Notes under the pieces: generated by a model
Seen by the model: the letters and a program-made list of their open reading frames with translations, nothing else
What the model was told of the DNA's origin: nothing
The model's database searches: none
Program-made: the position numbers and the translations under genes
Part shown: positions 20,548 through 29,741 of the stretch, piece after piece
Position numbering within the stretch: the first letter of the stretch is position 1
How the letters are laid out: each line of letters begins with the position of its first letter
Assembly: GCF_003355155.1 (NCBI RefSeq)
Contig: NZ_CP031320.1
Span: forward strand, 372,001 to 436,000
Direction of reading: 5' to 3'
Length of the DNA: 64,000 nt
From: Streptomyces armeniacus
Lineage (GTDB): Bacteria > Actinomycetota > Actinomycetes > Streptomycetales > Streptomycetaceae

Positions 20548-21726
20548 TCAGTAGACCGGCTTGTCCGGCTCGATCTGGTTCACCCAGCCGATGACGCCGC
20601 CGCCCACGTGGACGGCGTCCGCGAAGCCCGCGTTCTTCAACACCGCGAGCACTTCCGCGGACCGGACACCCGTCTTGCAATGCAAGACGATCCGCTTGTC
20701 CTGCGGCATGCCGCCGAGCGCGTTCCCCATCAGGAACTCGTCCTTCGGGATCAGCCGCGCGCCCGGGATGGAGACGATCTCGTACTCGTTCGGCTCGCGG
20801 ACGTCGATCACGTCGATGCTCTCGCCGTCGTCCATCCACTCCTTGAGCTGCTTCGGAGTGATGGTGGAGCCGGCCGCCGCCTCCTGCGCCTCGTCGCTGA
20901 CGACGCCGCAGAACGCCTCGTAGTCGATCAGCTCGGTGACCGTCGGGTTCTCGCCGCAGACCGCGCAGTCCGGGTCCTTGCGCACCTTGACCTGCCGGTA
21001 CGTCATCTCCAGCGCGTCGTAGATCATCAGGCGCCCGACCAGCGGGTCGCCGATGCCGGCCAGCACCTTGATGGCCTCGTTGACCTGGATCGAGCCGACG
21101 GACGCGCAGAGCACGCCCAGCACGCCGCCCTCGGCGCAGCTCGGCACCATGCCGGGCGGCGGCGGCTCGGGGTAGAGGCAGCGGTAGCACGGCCCGTGCT
21201 CGCTCCAGAAGACGGACGCCTGGCCGTCGAAGCGGTAGATGGAGCCCCAGACGTACGGCTTGCCGAGCAGCACGCAGGCGTCGTTGACCAGGTAGCGGGT
21301 GGCGAAGTTGTCGGTGCCGTCGACGATCAGGTCGTACTGCGCGAAGAGGTCCATGACGTTCGAGGAGTCGAGCCGCTCCTCGTGCAGCCGCACCTCGACG
21401 TACGGGTTGATGCCGAGGACCGTGTCCTTCGCGGAGGCCCCCTTGGACCGGCCGATGTCCGCCTGGCTGTGGATGATCTGGCGCTGCAGGTTCGACTCGT
21501 CGACCTCGTCGAACTCCACGATGCCGAGCGTGCCGACACCGGCCGCGGCCATGTACATCAGCGCGGGCGAGCCCAGTCCGCCGGCGCCCACACAGAGCAC
21601 CTTGGCGTTCTTGAGCCGCTTCTGACCGTCCATCCCGACATCGGGGATGATCAGGTGACGGGAGTACCTGCGGACCTCGTCGACGGTGAGCTCGGGGGCC
21701 GGCTCGACCAGGGGTGGCAGCGACAC
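20548..21726 (-). CDS. moeZ: MoeZ: adenylyltransferase-sulfurtransferase (ThiF/MoeB plus rhodanese)
   Basis: This 392-residue two-domain protein has an N-terminal ThiF/MoeB/E1-like adenylation domain (GAGGLGSP near 49-56, CxxC zinc pairs YRCLYP and DCAVCG). The C-terminal rhodanese domain has the persulfide loop CKTGVRS. It activates and sulfurates ubiquitin-like sulfur carriers used for cysteine, thiocarboxylate and molybdopterin synthesis, and for some thio-containing natural products. The GTG at 21726 with GAGG upstream gives the family length. An ATG at 21795 overlaps the stop of the upstream gene and would add 23 residues with translational coupling. Confidence 0.93.
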   Translation of the reverse strand: MSLPPLVEPAPELTVDEVRRYSRHLIIPDVGMDGQKRLKNAKVLCVGAGGLGSPALMYMAAAGVGTLGIVEFDEVDESNLQRQIIHSQADIGRSKGASAKDTVLGINPYVEVRLHEERLDSSNVMDLFAQYDLIVDGTDNFATRYLVNDACVLLGKPYVWGSIYRFDGQASVFWSEHGPCYRCLYPEPPPPGMVPSCAEGGVLGVLCASVGSIQVNEAIKVLAGIGDPLVGRLMIYDALEMTYRQVKVRKDPDCAVCGENPTVTELIDYEAFCGVVSDEAQEAAAGSTITPKQLKEWMDDGESIDVIDVREPNEYEIVSIPGARLIPKDEFLMGNALGGMPQDKRIVLHCKTGVRSAEVLAVLKNAGFADAVHVGGGVIGWVNQIEPDKPVY

Positions 21727-21791
21727 GAAGACCTCAACAAGGGTTGGTCGGTAGGCGTACGGATGTTCTCGTAACACTGCCACGCGCTCTT

Positions 21792-22544
21792 TCATTCCGA
21801 GACACCTGGTCCGAGGCGCGAGACGATCTCGTCCCAGTACCCGGGCAGCCCCTCCCACGGGTTCGCTCCGCCCACCGCCGTACGGTCCGTGAACCACACC
21901 GTGCCCGCGCCCTGCCAGCGCGCGATGCGCAGCGCCTCGTCCAGATGCGTACGGGACACCCCGTGCACCAGGTGGCAGAACCGCTCAGGCGGCAGCTCCG
22001 CGGTCCACTCCGCCGCCTGCGACCACCGGTAGTCGGGCCAGCCGCCCGCGAAGGTGACCAGCTGGTCGGCGCACTCGGCGTACCCCGGATACGGGTGCCG
22101 CCCGTGCCCGAAGACGAGCAGCCCGCCGCCGCACAGGGCGCGCAGCGTGGTCGCCGTACGCCGTGTCTCGCGCAGGTACGCCGGCTCGCACGGGCAGCGG
22201 GCCAGATAGAAGCCGTCCACCCCGTACCAGTCCAGGAAGCGGTGCGCGTCCGACACCAGCTCGCCGAACGGGCGGCACCCGCGGCGCAGTTCCAGGCTGC
22301 CCAGCACCCGGCGGCCCGCCGCGCGCAGCCGGTCGACGGCCTCCCTGCAGTACGGGTCGGGGCGCGCGCCGGGACCCTGGGCCACGTTGAGCACGGCCCA
22401 GTGCAGGGACATGCCCGGCCGGGCCAGCTCGGCCCACTCCAGGGGTGCCAGCAGCGGATGCGCGTAGCCGGGCACGCCGAAGCCGAGCCGCCCGTCCGTG
22501 CCGCTCGCGGGGCGCGCGACGCCCGGTGTCATCACATGCGGCAT
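21792..22544 (-). CDS. spherulin-4 / GH135-like protein
   Basis: This 250-residue protein has the core landmarks of the spherulation-specific family 4 TIM barrel: VPGYAHPL near 24-31, VLNVAQGPG near 51-59, RVLGSLEL near 79-86 and GVDGFYL near 108-114. Fungal members (Sph3, GH135) cleave galactosaminogalactan. Here the acidic pair after VDG(F/I)(F/Y) is replaced (YLARCP), and there is no signal peptide, so it is probably cytoplasmic and may lack hydrolase activity. Its ATG overlaps the end of the epimerase gene by 13 bases, and its stop overlaps a possible moeZ start. It is part of a putative polysaccharide cluster. Confidence 0.75.
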   Translation of the reverse strand: MPHVMTPGVARPASGTDGRLGFGVPGYAHPLLAPLEWAELARPGMSLHWAVLNVAQGPGARPDPYCREAVDRLRAAGRRVLGSLELRRGCRPFGELVSDAHRFLDWYGVDGFYLARCPCEPAYLRETRRTATTLRALCGGGLLVFGHGRHPYPGYAECADQLVTFAGGWPDYRWSQAAEWTAELPPERFCHLVHGVSRTHLDEALRIARWQGAGTVWFTDRTAVGGANPWEGLPGYWDEIVSRLGPGVSE

Positions 22545-23455
22545 GCGGCCTCCATCCAGATGTCGGCGAGTGACTCCTCCAGTCCGATGCGGGGCCGCCA
22601 GCCGAGCCGGTCGCGTGCGGTGCGCACGTCTGCCTGCTGCCAGCTGCCGCAGCCGTCCGGATACGGGTACGCGCCGGAGGCGCCGGTGAGGCCGGCGGCC
22701 TGCGTGTCCAGTTCGTGCACGGCGCCGGTGTAGCCGGAGACGCGGGCCAGCACGGAGGCGGCGTCGCGGAGGCGTACGGACCGGCCGGTGGCGATGTTGA
22801 CGACGCCCTGCGCGGCCGAGAGCGAGGCCGCGTGCACGGCGCGCGCGACATCCCGTACGTCCACGAAGTCGCGCTGCACGCCCAGCCCGGGCAGTTTCAA
22901 CTCGCTGTCACCCTGCTGGAGCGCGCGGCGCATCGCCTCCGCGAGCCGCCCCAGCGGCGAACCGGCGGGCGTACCGGGACCGACCGGCGAGAACACGCGC
23001 AGCACCACCGCGTCCAGGCCCGAGCCCAGCACCAGTTCGGTGGCGGCGAGCTTGCTCACGCCGTACGGGCCGCCGGGGCGCGGCAGCGCGTCCTCCGCCG
23101 TGGACGAACCGGAGGGGGACGGCCCGTACTCGGCGGCGCAGCCCAGGTGCACGAGCCGCGCGCCGCAGCCGCTGCGGCGCAGCGCCTCGCAGACGGTGGC
23201 CGCGCTGACCGTGTTGTGCCGGGTGAGATCGCGGGCGCTGCCGCGGGTCGCGCCCGCGCAGTTGATGACGACGCCGGGGTGCACGGCGTCCAGGAAGCGC
23301 GTGAGCGCGCCGGGACTGCCTGCGGACAGGTCGAACCGTACGTCGGAGTCGTCGCTCCGGCCGAGCGCGGTGAGGGTCACGGCGGGGTCGGCGAGCAGCC
23401 GGTCGGCCACGAAGCGGCCGAGGTAGCCGTGGGCACCGAGCAGCAGCACTCTCAT
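22532..23455 (-). CDS. extended SDR, sugar-nucleotide epimerase/dehydratase-like
   Basis: This 307-residue protein has the NAD-binding motif GAHGYLG at 7-13, a partner region NCAGATRGS near 65-73 and the catalytic YGVSK near 131-135. The upstream Ser/Thr is likely in HLGCAAEYG. It ends in the usual C-terminal substrate domain (LGWRPRIGLEESL). Enzymes of this group interconvert or oxidise UDP/dTDP-sugars; the substrate cannot be read from the sequence. The next gene (spherulin-like) starts inside its last codons, so the two are translationally coupled. A 416-base spacer separates it from the membrane protein gene upstream. Confidence 0.85.
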   Translation of the reverse strand: MRVLLLGAHGYLGRFVADRLLADPAVTLTALGRSDDSDVRFDLSAGSPGALTRFLDAVHPGVVINCAGATRGSARDLTRHNTVSAATVCEALRRSGCGARLVHLGCAAEYGPSPSGSSTAEDALPRPGGPYGVSKLAATELVLGSGLDAVVLRVFSPVGPGTPAGSPLGRLAEAMRRALQQGDSELKLPGLGVQRDFVDVRDVARAVHAASLSAAQGVVNIATGRSVRLRDAASVLARVSGYTGAVHELDTQAAGLTGASGAYPYPDGCGSWQQADVRTARDRLGWRPRIGLEESLADIWMEAACRM

Positions 23456-23871
23456 CGTGCGGCCTCCTGCTGGTGGGGGTGGGCGGGTGCGGTGGATGCG
23501 GTGGAGCGGCGCGGGCTCGGTGAGCCCTGCGCGCTCTCTGACGGCTCAGCGATCATGGGACGTGTGCTCCTCAACGGTGTCGAACGGTGATACGGAACGG
23601 GGCCGCGCGGCAGGCACGGACGGTGCGGCGTCGCGGAGGCGCGCCGGCGGAGTCCGCGTGCGGGCGGCGCGTACGGCAGGCGGCCGGACGGACCGTGCGC
23701 GGCGTCGCCAGTGCACGCCGGGCGGCGTACGCGTGCCGGGCGGCGCGTACGCGTACGGGCGCGCGTCGCCGCACAGGCGCGGGTGCCCGTACGGCGGCCC
23801 GTGCGCGTACGGCGCGGGCCCCGCGCGGGGTATGCGGCCGCGCGCCGGCCGCCGGGTGCGGCTGCCGCGCG
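23456..23871. other. intergenic stretch, GTACG-rich low complexity
   Basis: No gene is supported here. From about 23640 to 23870 the DNA is a degenerate array of CGTACG-type words mixed with GGCGG. No clean tandem unit or hairpin was found. A promoter for the epimerase-spherulin pair may lie near 23500-23600, but no good hexamers were seen. Confidence 0.6.
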
Positions 23872-25887
23872 TCACGGGGCGGCCGTCCCGTGGTGGGCTG
23901 ACGCGCCGGTCAGCGCGCGGGCGGCATACACCAGGAGCGTCAGCGTGACGGCCGCGCAGACCGCCGCCGGAACGGCGGACGGACCGAACTCCGCCACCGT
24001 CCGCCCCACCGGCTCCCCCACCACGTCCAGGCCTGGCAGCCGCGCGGCGGGCACGGAGCCCAGCGCGAACACCTCCAGCAGGCACGCGGTGGCCAGCCCG
24101 CCTGCGGCCGCCTCCGGGAACCCGTGCGCGGCCAGCAGCAACGCCACGAACAGCAGCACGCCCAGCGCCCCGGTCGCCGCCTGTGTCGCGGCGGCCGGGA
24201 GCCGCCCGTCGACCACGAGACCCGCGGCGGACTGCACGGCCAGCAGCAGCACCGTGAACACGGCGACCACACCGGCCAGCAGCGGCCGCACCCCCGCCGC
24301 GAACTCGGCGAGGCTGCGGCTCCGCGCCAGCCTCCGCCGGGCGCGTACGGCGAAGAACCGCGCGCACCAGACGGCGGGCGCCACGGCGCACGCGAGGGCG
24401 ATCGGCACGCACCGGCACGCGGCGGTGGGCTCCGCGTCGGTGAGGTCCGGGCCGCCCGCGAGCAGCGCGGTGAGCACCCAGTCGCCGTAGAGGGCGTAGC
24501 CGACCAGCGCGCAGAGGGAGAGCGCGGGCCAGACCGGGAGCGGCGGCTGCGGGGCGTCCGGGGGCGGCCCCGCGGCCCCGGTCTCGACGGAGCCGGCGGG
24601 CAGGGCGGCACCGCGCAGGCACGGGCGTACGGCGCACCACATCGCGGCGAGCGTCGCCACCGTGCCCAGCACCGCCACGCCCTGGCGGGCGGGTGCCGGG
24701 AGGTCCGGCAGCAGCGCCAGCGCGGCGAACGCGCCCGAGCACAGCACCCCGGGCAGCAGCGGCACGGCCACCCGGGCCGCGGTCAGCCGGAGCGCGGCGG
24801 CGAGGCGGTGGCGGAGGCGCTCCGCGCCGGGCTCAGGGCGCCCGGAACCCGGCGCGGACGGGCGTCTCTGCCCGCCGCGAGCGCCGGGTGCGCCCGGAAC
24901 TCCGCCCGGCCCGGCGCCCGTACGCCCCGTGCCGCCGCCGTCCGTGCTCTCCGCGCGGGGCACGCGCGCGTACAGCTCCTCGGCGAGCGAGAAAACGTCG
25001 CGGTGCCGGAAGCGCGTCGCCGTACGGTCGGTCACGCCGCGCGCCTCCAGGCCGGCGGCGATCTCCAGCGGGTCGACGGCCTGTTCGCACAGCTCGCGGT
25101 ACTGGTGCATGAGCGCGCGCACCGGGTCCGCGGAAGCGCGTACGCGCGGGGCGTGCCCCTGCCCGGCCGCGTGCCCGGCGGCGCCCGCGCGCGCCTCGTC
25201 CGCAGCGCCGGTGCCGGGCTCGGACGGGGCGCGGACGTCGGACTCAGACGGGGCGCCGGTGCCGGACTCGGGGGGCCGTACGGGTGTGTGTCCCGTCACG
25301 CCGGTCTGCTCCACGGCGGGCACCCCCGCGGCGTCGAACGCCGCCATGTCGTCGGCCCGGCCCGCCTCGGGCCAGACCACGCGCGGCGCGACGCCGTGCC
25401 GTTCGGGCCCCGGACCGCGCTCCGGCGCCTCCTCGGGCACACGGCCTGCCGCGCCTTCTCCGGGGGCGGCGCAGGGCCTGCCGTGCGTACGGTCCGCGGC
25501 GCCCGCGCGCGGAGCGGCGCCCTCCGGCACCGCGGCGGAGGAGGCGGCGGAAGGGGCGACCGCGGCGGGCTGTGCGCCCGTACGCCCCCGGTCCGCGCCC
25601 GTGACCGGTCCGGACGGCACCTCGGAGCCGTCGAGGAGGACCCACGAACGGGCGTCCCAGGCGCCCGGGTTCACGGGCGCCGCCGCGGCTCCCGGCCCCG
25701 GCGCCCCGGAACGGTCCTCGGCCGTGCCGGCGCCCGCGGGCCCGCCGCTCACCGTGTGCGTCCCGCCTGCTGCGCCCGTCGGGCCCGCCGCGCCGGCGTC
25801 TTCCGGGCCGCCCCCCACGGGCGGGCCAGAGGCCGGCGCGGCGGACTCGGCGGGCTGCGGTGGGGTGCCGGGTGAGTGGGGGGTCAC
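23872..25887 (-). CDS. multi-pass membrane protein with long disordered N-terminus
   Basis: This is a 671-residue protein. Residues 1-250 are a Pro/Gly/Ala/Glu-rich cytosolic region. A short conserved-looking segment follows (LMHQYRELCEQAVDPLEI ... RHRDVFSLAEELYARVP, about 270-330). About eight predicted membrane helices fill residues 370-665. No named family is recognised. Its GTG start overlaps the stop of the PelF-like glycosyltransferase by four bases (GTGA), so the two are translationally coupled and probably work together. It could be the exporter or a partner of the glycosyltransferase, as PelG is for PelF, but homology to PelG is not shown. Confidence 0.75.
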   Translation of the reverse strand: MTPHSPGTPPQPAESAAPASGPPVGGGPEDAGAAGPTGAAGGTHTVSGGPAGAGTAEDRSGAPGPGAAAAPVNPGAWDARSWVLLDGSEVPSGPVTGADRGRTGAQPAAVAPSAASSAAVPEGAAPRAGAADRTHGRPCAAPGEGAAGRVPEEAPERGPGPERHGVAPRVVWPEAGRADDMAAFDAAGVPAVEQTGVTGHTPVRPPESGTGAPSESDVRAPSEPGTGAADEARAGAAGHAAGQGHAPRVRASADPVRALMHQYRELCEQAVDPLEIAAGLEARGVTDRTATRFRHRDVFSLAEELYARVPRAESTDGGGTGRTGAGPGGVPGAPGARGGQRRPSAPGSGRPEPGAERLRHRLAAALRLTAARVAVPLLPGVLCSGAFAALALLPDLPAPARQGVAVLGTVATLAAMWCAVRPCLRGAALPAGSVETGAAGPPPDAPQPPLPVWPALSLCALVGYALYGDWVLTALLAGGPDLTDAEPTAACRCVPIALACAVAPAVWCARFFAVRARRRLARSRSLAEFAAGVRPLLAGVVAVFTVLLLAVQSAAGLVVDGRLPAAATQAATGALGVLLFVALLLAAHGFPEAAAGGLATACLLEVFALGSVPAARLPGLDVVGEPVGRTVAEFGPSAVPAAVCAAVTLTLLVYAARALTGASAHHGTAAP

Positions 25888-27854
25888 TTCGGGTCCTCCT
25901 TTCCGTGCCGGACGCCGACCCGCGGCGGCGCGGCGCCCCGTACGGCGTCGCCGCGCCCCGAACGGCGCGCCCAGCTGGGTGCGGTGCCGGGGCGGGGAGC
26001 GCCCGGCTGGGGTTCGGTGCGCGCGTTCGGCCGGTGGCCCCCGGCGGAGGGCCCCACCGCGCCGCCGGACTGGCCCGCCTGCGCGCGCGTGGTGCCCGCC
26101 CAGCGGCCGGGCACGTGGGCCTCCGCGGGGCGCGCGAACGGCAGGCGGCGGCGCGCGTCGCCGTCCTCGCCCGCCGTGCCGGCGCTCTCGCGCCGCACGG
26201 GGCAGTGCGACATCAGCTCGAGGTAGATGCCGCGGAAGGCCTCGATGTTCTGCTCGGCGGTGAAGAGTTCGAGCGCACGCGCGCGGGCCGCCGCCCCCAG
26301 GCGCGCGCGGCGCGCGGGGTCGCGCAGGAGCGCGACGCAGGCTTCCGCCAGCGCGCGCGGGTCCCGCTGCGGCACCACGAGGCCTGTGCCGCCGATGACC
26401 TCGCACACGGCGCCGGCGTCCGTCGAGACCGTGGCGCGGGCGCAGAACATCGCCTCCACCAGCGATACGGGGAAGCCCTCCACCACGCTCGACAGGACGA
26501 CGACTCCGGCCGAGGCGTACGCGTCCGCGAGCGTCGGCACCGCCGGGCTGCCGACCTCCTCGAAGGTGACCGGCGCCTCCTCGGACCGCGCGCCCCCGCC
26601 CGTACGCCCGGCCGCCGTACGCCCGCCCGCGCGCCCCGCCGCCCGGCCGGGACGCCCGTCGGCGACGCCGTCCGGGAAGAGCTGCGCGGCCAGTTCGCGA
26701 CAGTGCGCCGCGTAGTCGTCGGCGGCGGGATCGCGGGCGCCCGGTGTCTCCACGATCCGCAGCCGCGCGCGCGGCACCGCCTTGCGGACCTCGGCGAACG
26801 CGTGCAGCAGCGCGACGAGGTCCTTCGCCGGCGCGATCCGCCCCACCCACACCAGGACGGTCCCGCCGCCGCTGCCGCCGCGCGGCGCCGCCTCCGCCGT
26901 CTCCTCGACGACCGCCGCGAACGGCGCCGCGTCCATGCCGGGGTAGACCGTGCGCAGCCGCTCGCGGCGCGCTCCGCACCGCTCCTGCCAGCGCCGGGCG
27001 TGCGCGTTGCCGGGGGTGATCAGCTGCGCCTGCGCGTACGTCTCGCGGGCCAGCCGCCCCTGGAACGACGCCAGCAGCGCGCGTACGGGCGCCCCCGCCG
27101 CGGCCGGTGCGACGGCGTCCGCGGCGCTGGCGAGGTAGTGCTCGCGCAGCCGCACGCCGTACTCGGTGACGAGCAGCGGAGTGCCGTACGAGCGGGCCGC
27201 GAGCAGTCCGGCGAGCGCGGCCGTGCCGCCGCCCACCGCGTGGCACAGGTCGGCGGCGGCGAGGCCGCTGTCGCCGTCGGCCTCGCCGTACCAGTCCAGC
27301 GACAGGGGGCGCAGCGCGCGCTCCAGCCGGTCCACGACGGCGAGCAGGTCGGGGACCTTCGCGGACTGGGCGGCGCGCAGCGCGCCGGGGGCGCGGCAGG
27401 CGGACTCCAGGATGCGGACGGCGAGTTCGGAGCGGAGCGCGGCGGGGAGGCCGCGGTGCTGCCGGGCGAGGTCGGCGAGACCGTACAGCCCGGAGGCGAA
27501 ACGGTCCGCCAGGGCCGTCGAACCGTCGTCCGGATCGGCCGAGCAGACGGCGTCGGCCAGCTCCTTGAAGTGGCCCTCGAACCGGCGCCGTTCGCGCCGC
27601 CCGTGCACGCCGCGCCCGCCGCCCTTGGCCGGCGTCTCCGCCGCGGGGGCGCCGCCCCACAGGGGCGCGATGGACACGCGCGCGACGTTGCGCGGCAGAT
27701 CGCACCACCCGGCCTCTTCCTGGCGGGCGCTGCGGGTCAGCGCGTAGATCTCGAACTCGTGGCTGTCCAGCCCCCGCAGCAGCCGGTCGCACCACAGCAC
27801 CGACTCACCGCGCGCAGACGGGTAACCACCCTCCGTAAGCAGTGCAACGCGCAC
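25884..27854 (-). CDS. PelF-like GT4 glycosyltransferase with DUF3492 domain
   Basis: This is a 656-residue protein. The N-terminal DUF3492 signature is clear (ALLTEGGYPSARGE at 4-17, then FEIYAL), as is the GT-B donor half (VWVGRIAPAKD near 330). The E-x7-E type motif VEGFPVSLVEAMFC lies near 465-478. The final 130 residues are a low-complexity tail. DUF3492 plus GT4 is the architecture of PelF, which polymerises GalNAc/GlcNAc-type polysaccharide from UDP sugars. GTG at 27854 has GGGGGT upstream. An insert of Gly/Arg/Ala repeats near residue 410 is unusual. It is coupled to the membrane protein gene. Confidence 0.88.
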   Translation of the reverse strand: MRVALLTEGGYPSARGESVLWCDRLLRGLDSHEFEIYALTRSARQEEAGWCDLPRNVARVSIAPLWGGAPAAETPAKGGGRGVHGRRERRRFEGHFKELADAVCSADPDDGSTALADRFASGLYGLADLARQHRGLPAALRSELAVRILESACRAPGALRAAQSAKVPDLLAVVDRLERALRPLSLDWYGEADGDSGLAAADLCHAVGGGTAALAGLLAARSYGTPLLVTEYGVRLREHYLASAADAVAPAAAGAPVRALLASFQGRLARETYAQAQLITPGNAHARRWQERCGARRERLRTVYPGMDAAPFAAVVEETAEAAPRGGSGGGTVLVWVGRIAPAKDLVALLHAFAEVRKAVPRARLRIVETPGARDPAADDYAAHCRELAAQLFPDGVADGRPGRAAGRAGGRTAAGRTGGGARSEEAPVTFEEVGSPAVPTLADAYASAGVVVLSSVVEGFPVSLVEAMFCARATVSTDAGAVCEVIGGTGLVVPQRDPRALAEACVALLRDPARRARLGAAARARALELFTAEQNIEAFRGIYLELMSHCPVRRESAGTAGEDGDARRRLPFARPAEAHVPGRWAGTTRAQAGQSGGAVGPSAGGHRPNARTEPQPGAPRPGTAPSWARRSGRGDAVRGAAPPRVGVRHGKEDPK

Positions 27855-28130: not shown

Positions 28131-29741
28131 CTATCCCCGCGGGTGCGGCCACGGGTTGGGGCGGCAGGTCTCGCCGTCCGTCGTCAGGGACTTCGTCTGC
28201 TGCATCATCACGGGCGCCAGCTTGCCCTGCTTGTCGCAGCCCAGGTGGTCGCGGCCGAGCCGGTGGCCGACCTCGTGGTTGATGAGCATCTGCCGGTACT
28301 CCGCGATCAGCTCGTCCCCGAAGGTCTTCGAGCCGCGCGCCCAGCGCCACGCGTTGATCATGATCCGCTCGGTGGCGGCGGAGTCGCAGGAGACGTTCTG
28401 GTCCCGGGTGTCCAGGCCGGACTTGGCGCACCACTCGGCGGTCGTGCCGGGGCTGGCCAAGGTGATGACGAAGTCGGCGTCGCCGGACGACACCCGCTCG
28501 AAGCTGCGGGCGTCGTCGTGCGCCCAGCTGCGCTCGTCGTTCAGGGTGGTGTGCACTGCCTGTGCGAACAGCTCGGCGTCGAGCGGGAGTTCCTTCTCCA
28601 CGTCGACGCGGTAGCGCATGACCTCGCCGCCCTCGGCGCCCTTCTGCCGGCCCGGGACCGCCGCGAAGCTTCCGGGGCCCTTGAGCTTGGGGTCCAGCGG
28701 CACGACCGCGGCCATCTTGTCCTCGTACGTACGCGGTGCGGCGGGTTTCGACGGGCGCTCCGCCGGGTCGTCCGGGCGGTCGTCCGAGCGCGAGGCGTCC
28801 TCGTCCGAGCCGCGGTCCACCCCGGTGCTCGCGGCGCGCGTGTCCCGGCCGGGGTCGCCTCCGATGACCTGCCCGGCGATCACGACGGCCAGCACGGTGG
28901 TGACGGCGGCGGCCGCCGCCCCGGTGAGGGTGCGCGTACGGCCGCCCTTCTCCTCCCCCGGGCCGATGGGCGCGAGCGGCGCGTACGGCTCGTCGCGGTC
29001 GGGCGGCGCCTGGCCGCCGCGCACGGGTCCGGACGGCGGACGCTCGTCCAGCGGGTGTACGGCGCGCTCGTCGCCGTGTTCGGACGGCGCGTGCCGCTGC
29101 TCGCGCCGTTGTCCCGGTATGCGCGGCTCGGGGGCGCCCGCGGCGAAGACGTCGTCCGAGGTGTCGTCGAAGGCGTCCAGATATTCCTGCCGGGGACCGG
29201 ACGGCGGCCCCTGCCCCGGCGCCGGCCCCACCCGCGGGAGGCCGCCGGTCGGCGGGCCCTGGCCCGCGCCGTTCGCGCCCCAGCCGCCGCCCGGTTCGCG
29301 GTGCTGGGGGTGTCCGCCGCGGGCGGGCGATACACCCGGTACGCCGCCGGGCGGTGTGCCGGGTCCCGGGCCGCCGAAGAGGTTCGAGCCGTGCGCGGGC
29401 GTCCCCGGGCCTTCGGCCGGCGGCCCGCCCCGGCTGCCGCCCGGACCCGCGCCGGGCCCCGTCCGCCTGCCGCCCGGGCCGGGCCCGTACGCCTGCCCCG
29501 GCCCGTACGGACCGCCGTGCGCGCCCCCGTACGGCGCACCGCCGTACGTCGCGCCCCGCGGCGACCCTCCGCGTCCCGGCGGCTGCGGCGCGCCCGGGGG
29601 GCGCTGGGCCCCGGACGGGCGCTGCGCGCCCGCCGGTCCCGCGCCGGGCGCGCGCGGCGCCCCGTCGGCGCCGGCGGCGCCCTCCGTAGTGTCGGAGCTC
29701 GCGGAGCTCCCACCGCGCCGCTTGCGGCTGTGGCGTCCCAC
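28131..29741 (-). CDS. DUF3152 membrane-anchored protein with metzincin motif
   Basis: This is a 536-residue protein. Residues 1-270 are Gly/Pro-rich and disordered, one membrane helix follows (TLTGAAAAAVTTVLAVVIAGQVI), then an extracellular DUF3152 domain. That domain holds HEVGHRLGRDH near residue 486, an exact HExxHxxGxxH zinc motif, followed by PVMMQQ, which looks like the metzincin Met-turn. So it is probably an exported zinc protease. Substrate unknown. The GTG start shares one base with the stop of the upstream hydrolase (TAGTG), so they are coupled. The mycobacterial block has a DUF3152 gene at the same place. Confidence 0.88.
   Translation of the reverse strand: MGRHSRKRRGGSSASSDTTEGAAGADGAPRAPGAGPAGAQRPSGAQRPPGAPQPPGRGGSPRGATYGGAPYGGAHGGPYGPGQAYGPGPGGRRTGPGAGPGGSRGGPPAEGPGTPAHGSNLFGGPGPGTPPGGVPGVSPARGGHPQHREPGGGWGANGAGQGPPTGGLPRVGPAPGQGPPSGPRQEYLDAFDDTSDDVFAAGAPEPRIPGQRREQRHAPSEHGDERAVHPLDERPPSGPVRGGQAPPDRDEPYAPLAPIGPGEEKGGRTRTLTGAAAAAVTTVLAVVIAGQVIGGDPGRDTRAASTGVDRGSDEDASRSDDRPDDPAERPSKPAAPRTYEDKMAAVVPLDPKLKGPGSFAAVPGRQKGAEGGEVMRYRVDVEKELPLDAELFAQAVHTTLNDERSWAHDDARSFERVSSGDADFVITLASPGTTAEWCAKSGLDTRDQNVSCDSAATERIMINAWRWARGSKTFGDELIAEYRQMLINHEVGHRLGRDHLGCDKQGKLAPVMMQQTKSLTTDGETCRPNPWPHPRG

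Follow-up and report, generated by a model that had tools for sequence, protein, structure and literature searches.

The stretch of DNA analyzed here, referred to as the window, comprises 64,000 nucleotides from Streptomyces armeniacus (NZ_CP031320.1, positions 372,001 to 436,000) and contains, next to moeZ, a compact set of four genes that resembles loci for the biosynthesis of the polysaccharides Pel and galactosaminogalactan (GAG). The set codes for a glycosyltransferase (GT), a membrane protein (MP), a short-chain dehydrogenase/reductase (SDR) and a Spherulin4-fold protein (Sph), in the order GT-MP-SDR-Sph and all on the minus strand. The genes and their neighbors, in window coordinates, are:

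25884..27854, minus strand: GT, PelF-like glycosyltransferase (DUF3492 plus GT4) of 656 aa, identified with Pfam and NCBIfam
23872..25887, minus strand: MP, membrane protein with a GTG start and an AlphaFold2 model
23456..23871, minus strand: gap of 416 bases between MP and SDR, the site of LegB and a nucleotidyltransferase in fuller clusters
22532..23455, minus strand: SDR (“epimerase”), extended SDR of 307 aa, matching Pfam Epimerase
21792..22544, minus strand: Sph, Spherulin4/GH135-fold protein of 250 aa, identified with Pfam and by a structural match
20548..21897, minus strand: moeZ, the kept downstream neighbor, given as the listed open reading frame with an uncertain true start (the match to the MoeZ model begins at residue 58)
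28131..29741, minus strand: DUF3152 gene (Pfam match), the upstream neighbor, less constant among relatives

The translational coupling that had been proposed from the DNA for both gene pairs agrees with the layout: the GTG start of MP shares four bases (GTGA) with the stop of GT, and the ATG of Sph lies inside the end of SDR, with a 13-base overlap by coordinates. The placement of the set between moeZ and the DUF3152 gene was likewise as predicted. A promoter and terminator scan of the locus, which is uninformative for Streptomyces, found none.

Co-occurrence in relatives had been named as a check, and the order of the four genes and moeZ was kept in 32 fetched loci from the Streptomycetaceae besides the window (“window-type loci”), as far as the contigs extend, including ten (L061-L070) that belong to five further genera of this family. 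In these 32 loci, moeZ and Sph were identified in 32 each, SDR and MP in 31 each, and GT in 30, where the Sph count includes the partial L010 and the partly masked L044, and the two loci lacking GT end before this gene. DUF3152 had no match upstream of GT in the stretches fetched for L012, L042 and L063, and was located about 6 kb off in L036. A contig scan of named genomes with MP yielded 11 loci, while a search of 21 genomes with Sph, including that of the window, gave matches in 15 and none in 6. In a family sample of 61 genomes, 47 had a Sph-like match, from which 20 places were fetched, chosen for spread; within the genus of the window, a match of at least 57% identity was recovered from all 10 genomes of the sample, window included. 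Sph-like matches in another family (L054, 26%; L055, 24%) had no GT, MP or SDR alongside and were excluded from all counts.

The ratios of nonsynonymous to synonymous substitutions (dN/dS) were all below 1, ranging for the four genes from 0.08 to 0.62 across two relatives and from 0.08 to 0.46 against the nearest one. Compared to L004, the values were 0.08 for moeZ, 0.26 for Sph, 0.08 for SDR, 0.46 for the membrane part of MP and 0.24 for GT; compared to L011, they were 0.12, 0.19, 0.10, 0.62 and 0.41, respectively, with the estimates for MP and GT from L011 based on only 275 and 135 codons.

A paralogous and divergent set of fuller clusters was identified in 16 fetched loci (L046-L053 and L073-L080), of which L046-L053 show 36-41% identity to the window in GT and 38-43% in Sph. 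These clusters encode an Agd3-like deacetylase, a PelF-like GT, a membrane protein, a Sph3-like GH135 protein and often GH114; Agd3 is present in 15 of them (missing from L078) and GH114 in 10. LegB, a nucleotidyltransferase and SDR were found all together in 9 of the 16 loci and were all missing from the other 7. This cassette accompanies an Agd3 cluster in L047, L050, L072-L077, L079 and L080, which suggests that the donor in such clusters is a 6-deoxy amino sugar. The all-or-none pattern of LegB and the nucleotidyltransferase with SDR points to a 4-keto-6-deoxy sugar route in the paralogues.

The Agd3-like gene was found in 7 of the 21 genomes (G001, G004, G006, G007, G009, G011, G012), which are those that yielded the paralogous loci, and not in the genome of the window. 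One Streptomyces genome, G006, has two Agd3-bearing clusters (L048 and L050) besides its moeZ-linked locus. The protein looks secreted, and we call it Agd3-like on the basis of its match to Pfam PF25115 (L046, E 3.1e-6, 26.9 bits with a cut-off of 27.6; L050, E 0.0012) and of the 28% identity over 486 columns between the L046 protein and the neighbor of PelG in L056; the L046 protein had no significant match in the PDB. L056 and L057, from the same phylum, display the order PelF-PelG-Agd3-like, and are the only 2 of 149 genomes with PelG above the cut-off. The paralogous cluster is an already known kind of system, since such agd3 operons were reported by Bamford et al. (2020; PMC7229062), where a cytoplasmic GT and a multi-spanning membrane protein are described for all agd3 operons identified, often together with GH114, and spherulin-4 genes for some Actinobacteria.

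The genome of the window yielded no match to the Agd3-like protein of L046, and neither an Agd3/CE18 deacetylase nor a GH114 gene was found in the cluster in any of the 32 window-type loci. A single GH114 gene, scoring above the Pfam cut-off, is located about 4.2 Mb from the locus (G000:C1:4621898-4622509). In the window genome, the best candidate for an orthologue of LegB was rejected, as its identity was 38%, compared to 70-86% between genomes of the family. The gap between MP and SDR gave no match to LegB or the nucleotidyltransferase at E <= 10; aside from the flanking gene ends, the best match was to GH114 (E 0.005), with a query, used also for the GH114 counts in the fetched loci, of 472 residues from stop to stop, which extends upstream of the gene itself. 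In line with the original prediction that other Pel parts are missing, no PelA/PelADA-type deacetylase, PelD or PelE was seen among the scanned genes of the locus, no genome-wide search having been made with these models.

The residues and segments on which the comparison of the four proteins turns are:

27804..27806, minus strand: GT Glu17, acidic residue at the position of the second Gly in the GG loop of PelF and the paralogues
27159..27161, minus strand: GT Tyr232, replacing the conserved His of the TEHG motif
26823..26825, minus strand: GT Lys344, the donor-binding Lys, kept
26454..26480, minus strand: GT EX7E motif, Glu459 to Glu467, kept
24949..25149, minus strand: soluble helical mini-domain of MP, residues about 247-313, from the AlphaFold2 model and conservation
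23138..23140, minus strand: SDR Cys106, at the site of the catalytic Ser/Thr
22200..22202, minus strand: Sph Ala115, opposite the Asp of the Sph3 FDE motif (Asp166) in the alignment
22047..22049, minus strand: Sph Ala166, aligned with Sph3 Glu222 (acid/base)

The GT matches DUF3492 (E 1.2e-28) and the GT4 domains in Pfam, and is barely over the cut-off of 100 for the NCBIfam PelF model NF038011 (100.1 bits), as compared to 165.3 and 172.8 bits for two paralogous GTs. It contains an insert rich in Gly, Ala and Arg and ends in a low-complexity tail; the insert, at 26570-26680 in the window, is located within the GT4 part and faces a gap in the pairwise alignment with PelF from L056. Residues were counted in 28 of the 33 possible window-type rows (the window plus 32 loci), after partial GTs with less than 55% coverage had been dropped. 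Position 17 is Glu in 17 and Asp in 9 of these rows, and Gly in 15 of the 16 paralogues (one gap), in both PelF sequences and in L072, a locus with a full gene set beside moeZ. Position 232 is Tyr in 27 rows and His in one, as compared to His in all 16 paralogues, L072 and both PelF sequences. We infer that this histidine, assigned by its TEHG motif since the PDB alignments begin after it, is the equivalent of MshA His133 and PimA His118, the role of which is treated in two papers (PMC9883506, PMC4506291). Lys344, presumably the equivalent of the donor-binding Lys described in the latter, is present in all 28 rows, and each Glu of EX7E in 27 (one gap).

The AlphaFold2 model of MP (433 aa, pLDDT 82.7) contains eight helices of at least 20 residues, counted on the model without a membrane predictor, in agreement with the predicted number, and the protein starts with a long low-complexity N-terminus. 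MP matched nothing in Pfam at E <= 0.001 or in NCBIfam at E <= 1. The PelG family PF16933 did not match MP (E <= 0.001), the membrane proteins of two paralogous clusters (E <= 0.1) or the window genome. An assignment of MP to PelG gained no support from Pfam, from a PDB profile search or from hhalign against a profile of two PelG sequences, and MP may still be a distant homologue; the structural matches listed for the model include no PelG, which excludes nothing. The model resembles MOP flippases only suggestively. Conservation within MP is highest in the mini-domain (73-82% identity in L012, L035, L036, L039, L042 and L043), which may be a docking site for the GT.

The SDR matches PF01370 (E 1.8e-35), and the nearest solved structure is a GDP-6-deoxy-lyxo-4-hexulose reductase (2pk3, E 4.2e-20). 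With 33.6 bits against a cut-off of 262.3 for the NCBIfam GalE model, it is not clearly recognizable as a GalE-type UDP-sugar 4-epimerase. Among the 32 of 33 possible window-type rows that could be counted, position 106 is Cys in 31 and Ser in one, as compared to Ser in L071, L072 and 9 of 9 paralogues; Tyr131 and Lys135 of the triad are kept in all 32 rows, and the glycine motif is also kept. LegB and the nucleotidyltransferase, its partners in the paralogues, are gone from the window locus.

Sph matches Spherulin4 (PF12138, E 1.6e-15), has the Sph3 fold of GH135 known from the GAG-type cluster, and lacks a hydrophobic N-terminus. In what we take to be the numbering of the original work on Sph3, the Asp of its FDE motif is Asp166. 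The catalytic role of Glu222 is documented in PMC12054363, which prints the pair as Asp196/Glu222 and gives spacings of 58-69 residues for other enzymes. Asp166 is preferred here because the aligned FDE Asp precedes the aligned Glu by 56 residues; the loss of the Glu is independent of this numbering. Both catalytic residues were present in 0 of the 120 proteins closest to the window Sph (best 120 of 1324, window included) and in 120 of the 120 closest to the paralogue Sph (best 120 of 737), lists that carry no genomic context. One fetched window-type locus, L065, has a Sph with both residues. An alignment of 18 Sph proteins contains many invariant residues. In Streptomyces albus NRRL B-1811 (L010:10350-11800), the Sph frame appears broken, possibly by an assembly error, with GT, MP and SDR present. 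The Pel/GAG-like reading of the original prediction was partly supported.

The locus L072 (genome G035) has the order Agd3, GT, MP, LegB, nucleotidyltransferase, SDR, Sph, GH114 and then moeZ, and both catalytic residues (Asp/Glu) are intact in its Sph. In the trees of SDR and Sph, rooted manually on the paralogues and with a long-branch warning for that of SDR, L072 groups with the window type, split from the paralogues with 100% SH-aLRT support, and falls outside the clade formed by the window type itself (99% and 94%, respectively). With two PelF sequences as the root, the GT tree recovers the window type as one clade (100%) and does not settle how this clade relates to L072 and the paralogues. 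Since L072 combines a full set beside moeZ with a grouping with the window type, the window locus seems to have arisen by reduction of a Pel/GAG-type cluster, and the order in L056 and L057 supports a place for the deacetylase in the older state. The reduction would have happened at the moeZ site, where the direction of change is itself inferred. In L071, from the same family, SDR and Sph stand alone beside moeZ, GT and MP are both absent from the site, and the Glu of Sph is replaced by Asp.

We consider it somewhat probable that the locus descends, in reduced and re-tuned form, from an actinobacterial Pel/GAG-type cluster and makes a neutral, uncut glycan. Most likely, the GT and an exporter make a glycan that is neither cut nor deacetylated, with Sph as a non-hydrolyzing binder. 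The cytoplasmic GT would dock on the soluble mini-domain of MP and transfer a nucleotide sugar to a growing glycan or a lipid-linked acceptor, and MP would carry the product across the membrane in a flippase- or PelG-like manner. SDR would provide or edit the donor, a 4-keto/6-deoxy sugar being more likely than UDP-N-acetylgalactosamine, and Sph, without a signal peptide, may bind the nascent chain at the synthase and leave it uncut. With neither a deacetylase nor a local hydrolase, a neutral product is expected, left uncut and probably bound to the cell, in contrast to a cationic adhesive that is secreted. More tentatively, and perhaps doubtfully, the module may have been re-purposed as a unit across the Streptomycetaceae to make a conserved surface glycan. 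The deacetylase, dehydratase, nucleotidyltransferase and GH114 would have been lost first, followed by active-site changes in GT (His to Tyr, Gly-Gly to Gly-acidic), SDR (Ser to Cys) and Sph (loss of the Asp/Glu pair), and the former hydrolase would now serve the synthase as a cytoplasmic subunit that binds the chain.

It is rather unlikely that the GT is not a polymerase and instead attaches a single sugar or a few to a lipid carrier or a glycopolymer of the wall, with the product flipped by MP, since the nearest relatives of the GT are PelF-type and stand in clusters with polymer-cutting enzymes, and no lipid-carrier transferase was recognized in the operon with Pfam. The reading of the original prediction, a working reduced Pel/GAG system in which Sph trims an N-acetylgalactosamine polymer and a deacetylase from another locus modifies it, agrees with the PelF score just above the cut-off, the Sph3 fold and the distant GH114 gene, but is distinctly improbable given the missing catalytic pair, the lack of matches to the Agd3-like protein and PelG in the window genome, and an SDR closer to a 4-hexulose reductase than to GalE, with Cys for Ser. 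The nearly fixed active-site substitutions in GT, SDR and Sph under dN/dS below 1 would fit a catalytically silent module of sugar sensors or scaffolds, but this is very improbable, as the retention of EX7E and Lys in GT and of Tyr, Lys and the glycine motif in SDR is unexpected if all catalysis was lost. A decaying remnant of a lost cluster, to which the four missing genes, the lost Sph pair and the partial, broken or shortened copies in L044, L010 and L071 could be ascribed, is hardly credible in view of the dN/dS values against the nearest relative, the presence of Sph throughout the genus sample and its many invariant residues.

The reduced descendant that we favor shares the GT and the multi-spanning membrane protein with the Agd3-bearing operons, as described in PMC7229062, but differs from these in the absence of agd3 and GH114, the loss of the Sph pair and the fixed site beside moeZ. 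The Aspergillus GAG cluster, given there as uge3, gtb3, sph3, ega3 and agd3, has the Sph3 fold and the GT, membrane and SDR roles in common with the window locus, which lacks the deacetylase and Ega3/GH114, and in which Sph is not a GH135 enzyme by its residues and SDR not clearly a 4-epimerase. With the Gram-positive pelDEADAFG operons (Whitfield et al. 2020; PMC7112168), it shares a PelF-like GT beside a membrane protein, but not a recognizable PelG, nor PelD, PelE or PelA among the genes of the locus. Sph differs from Sph3 (GH135, PDB 5c5g) by Ala at the Asp and Glu222 positions and by the absence of an N-terminal signal or anchor. Among the titles listed by the literature searches, most of which covered a fraction of the matching papers, none is about this locus, and within these limits the deacetylase-free, altered form beside moeZ seems to be new.

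The all-or-none LegB cassette suggests that some bacterial GAG-like polymers may hold a 6-deoxy amino sugar instead of N-acetylgalactosamine. The series from the paralogue Sph through L072 to the window-type Sph would provide natural material for the study of a non-cutting hydrolase-fold protein in a synthase complex. Hyphal aggregation in Streptomyces has been linked to surface glycans (PMC5972031), and the locus would be a glycan operon, widely conserved but without an assigned product, that is accessible to a direct deletion test.

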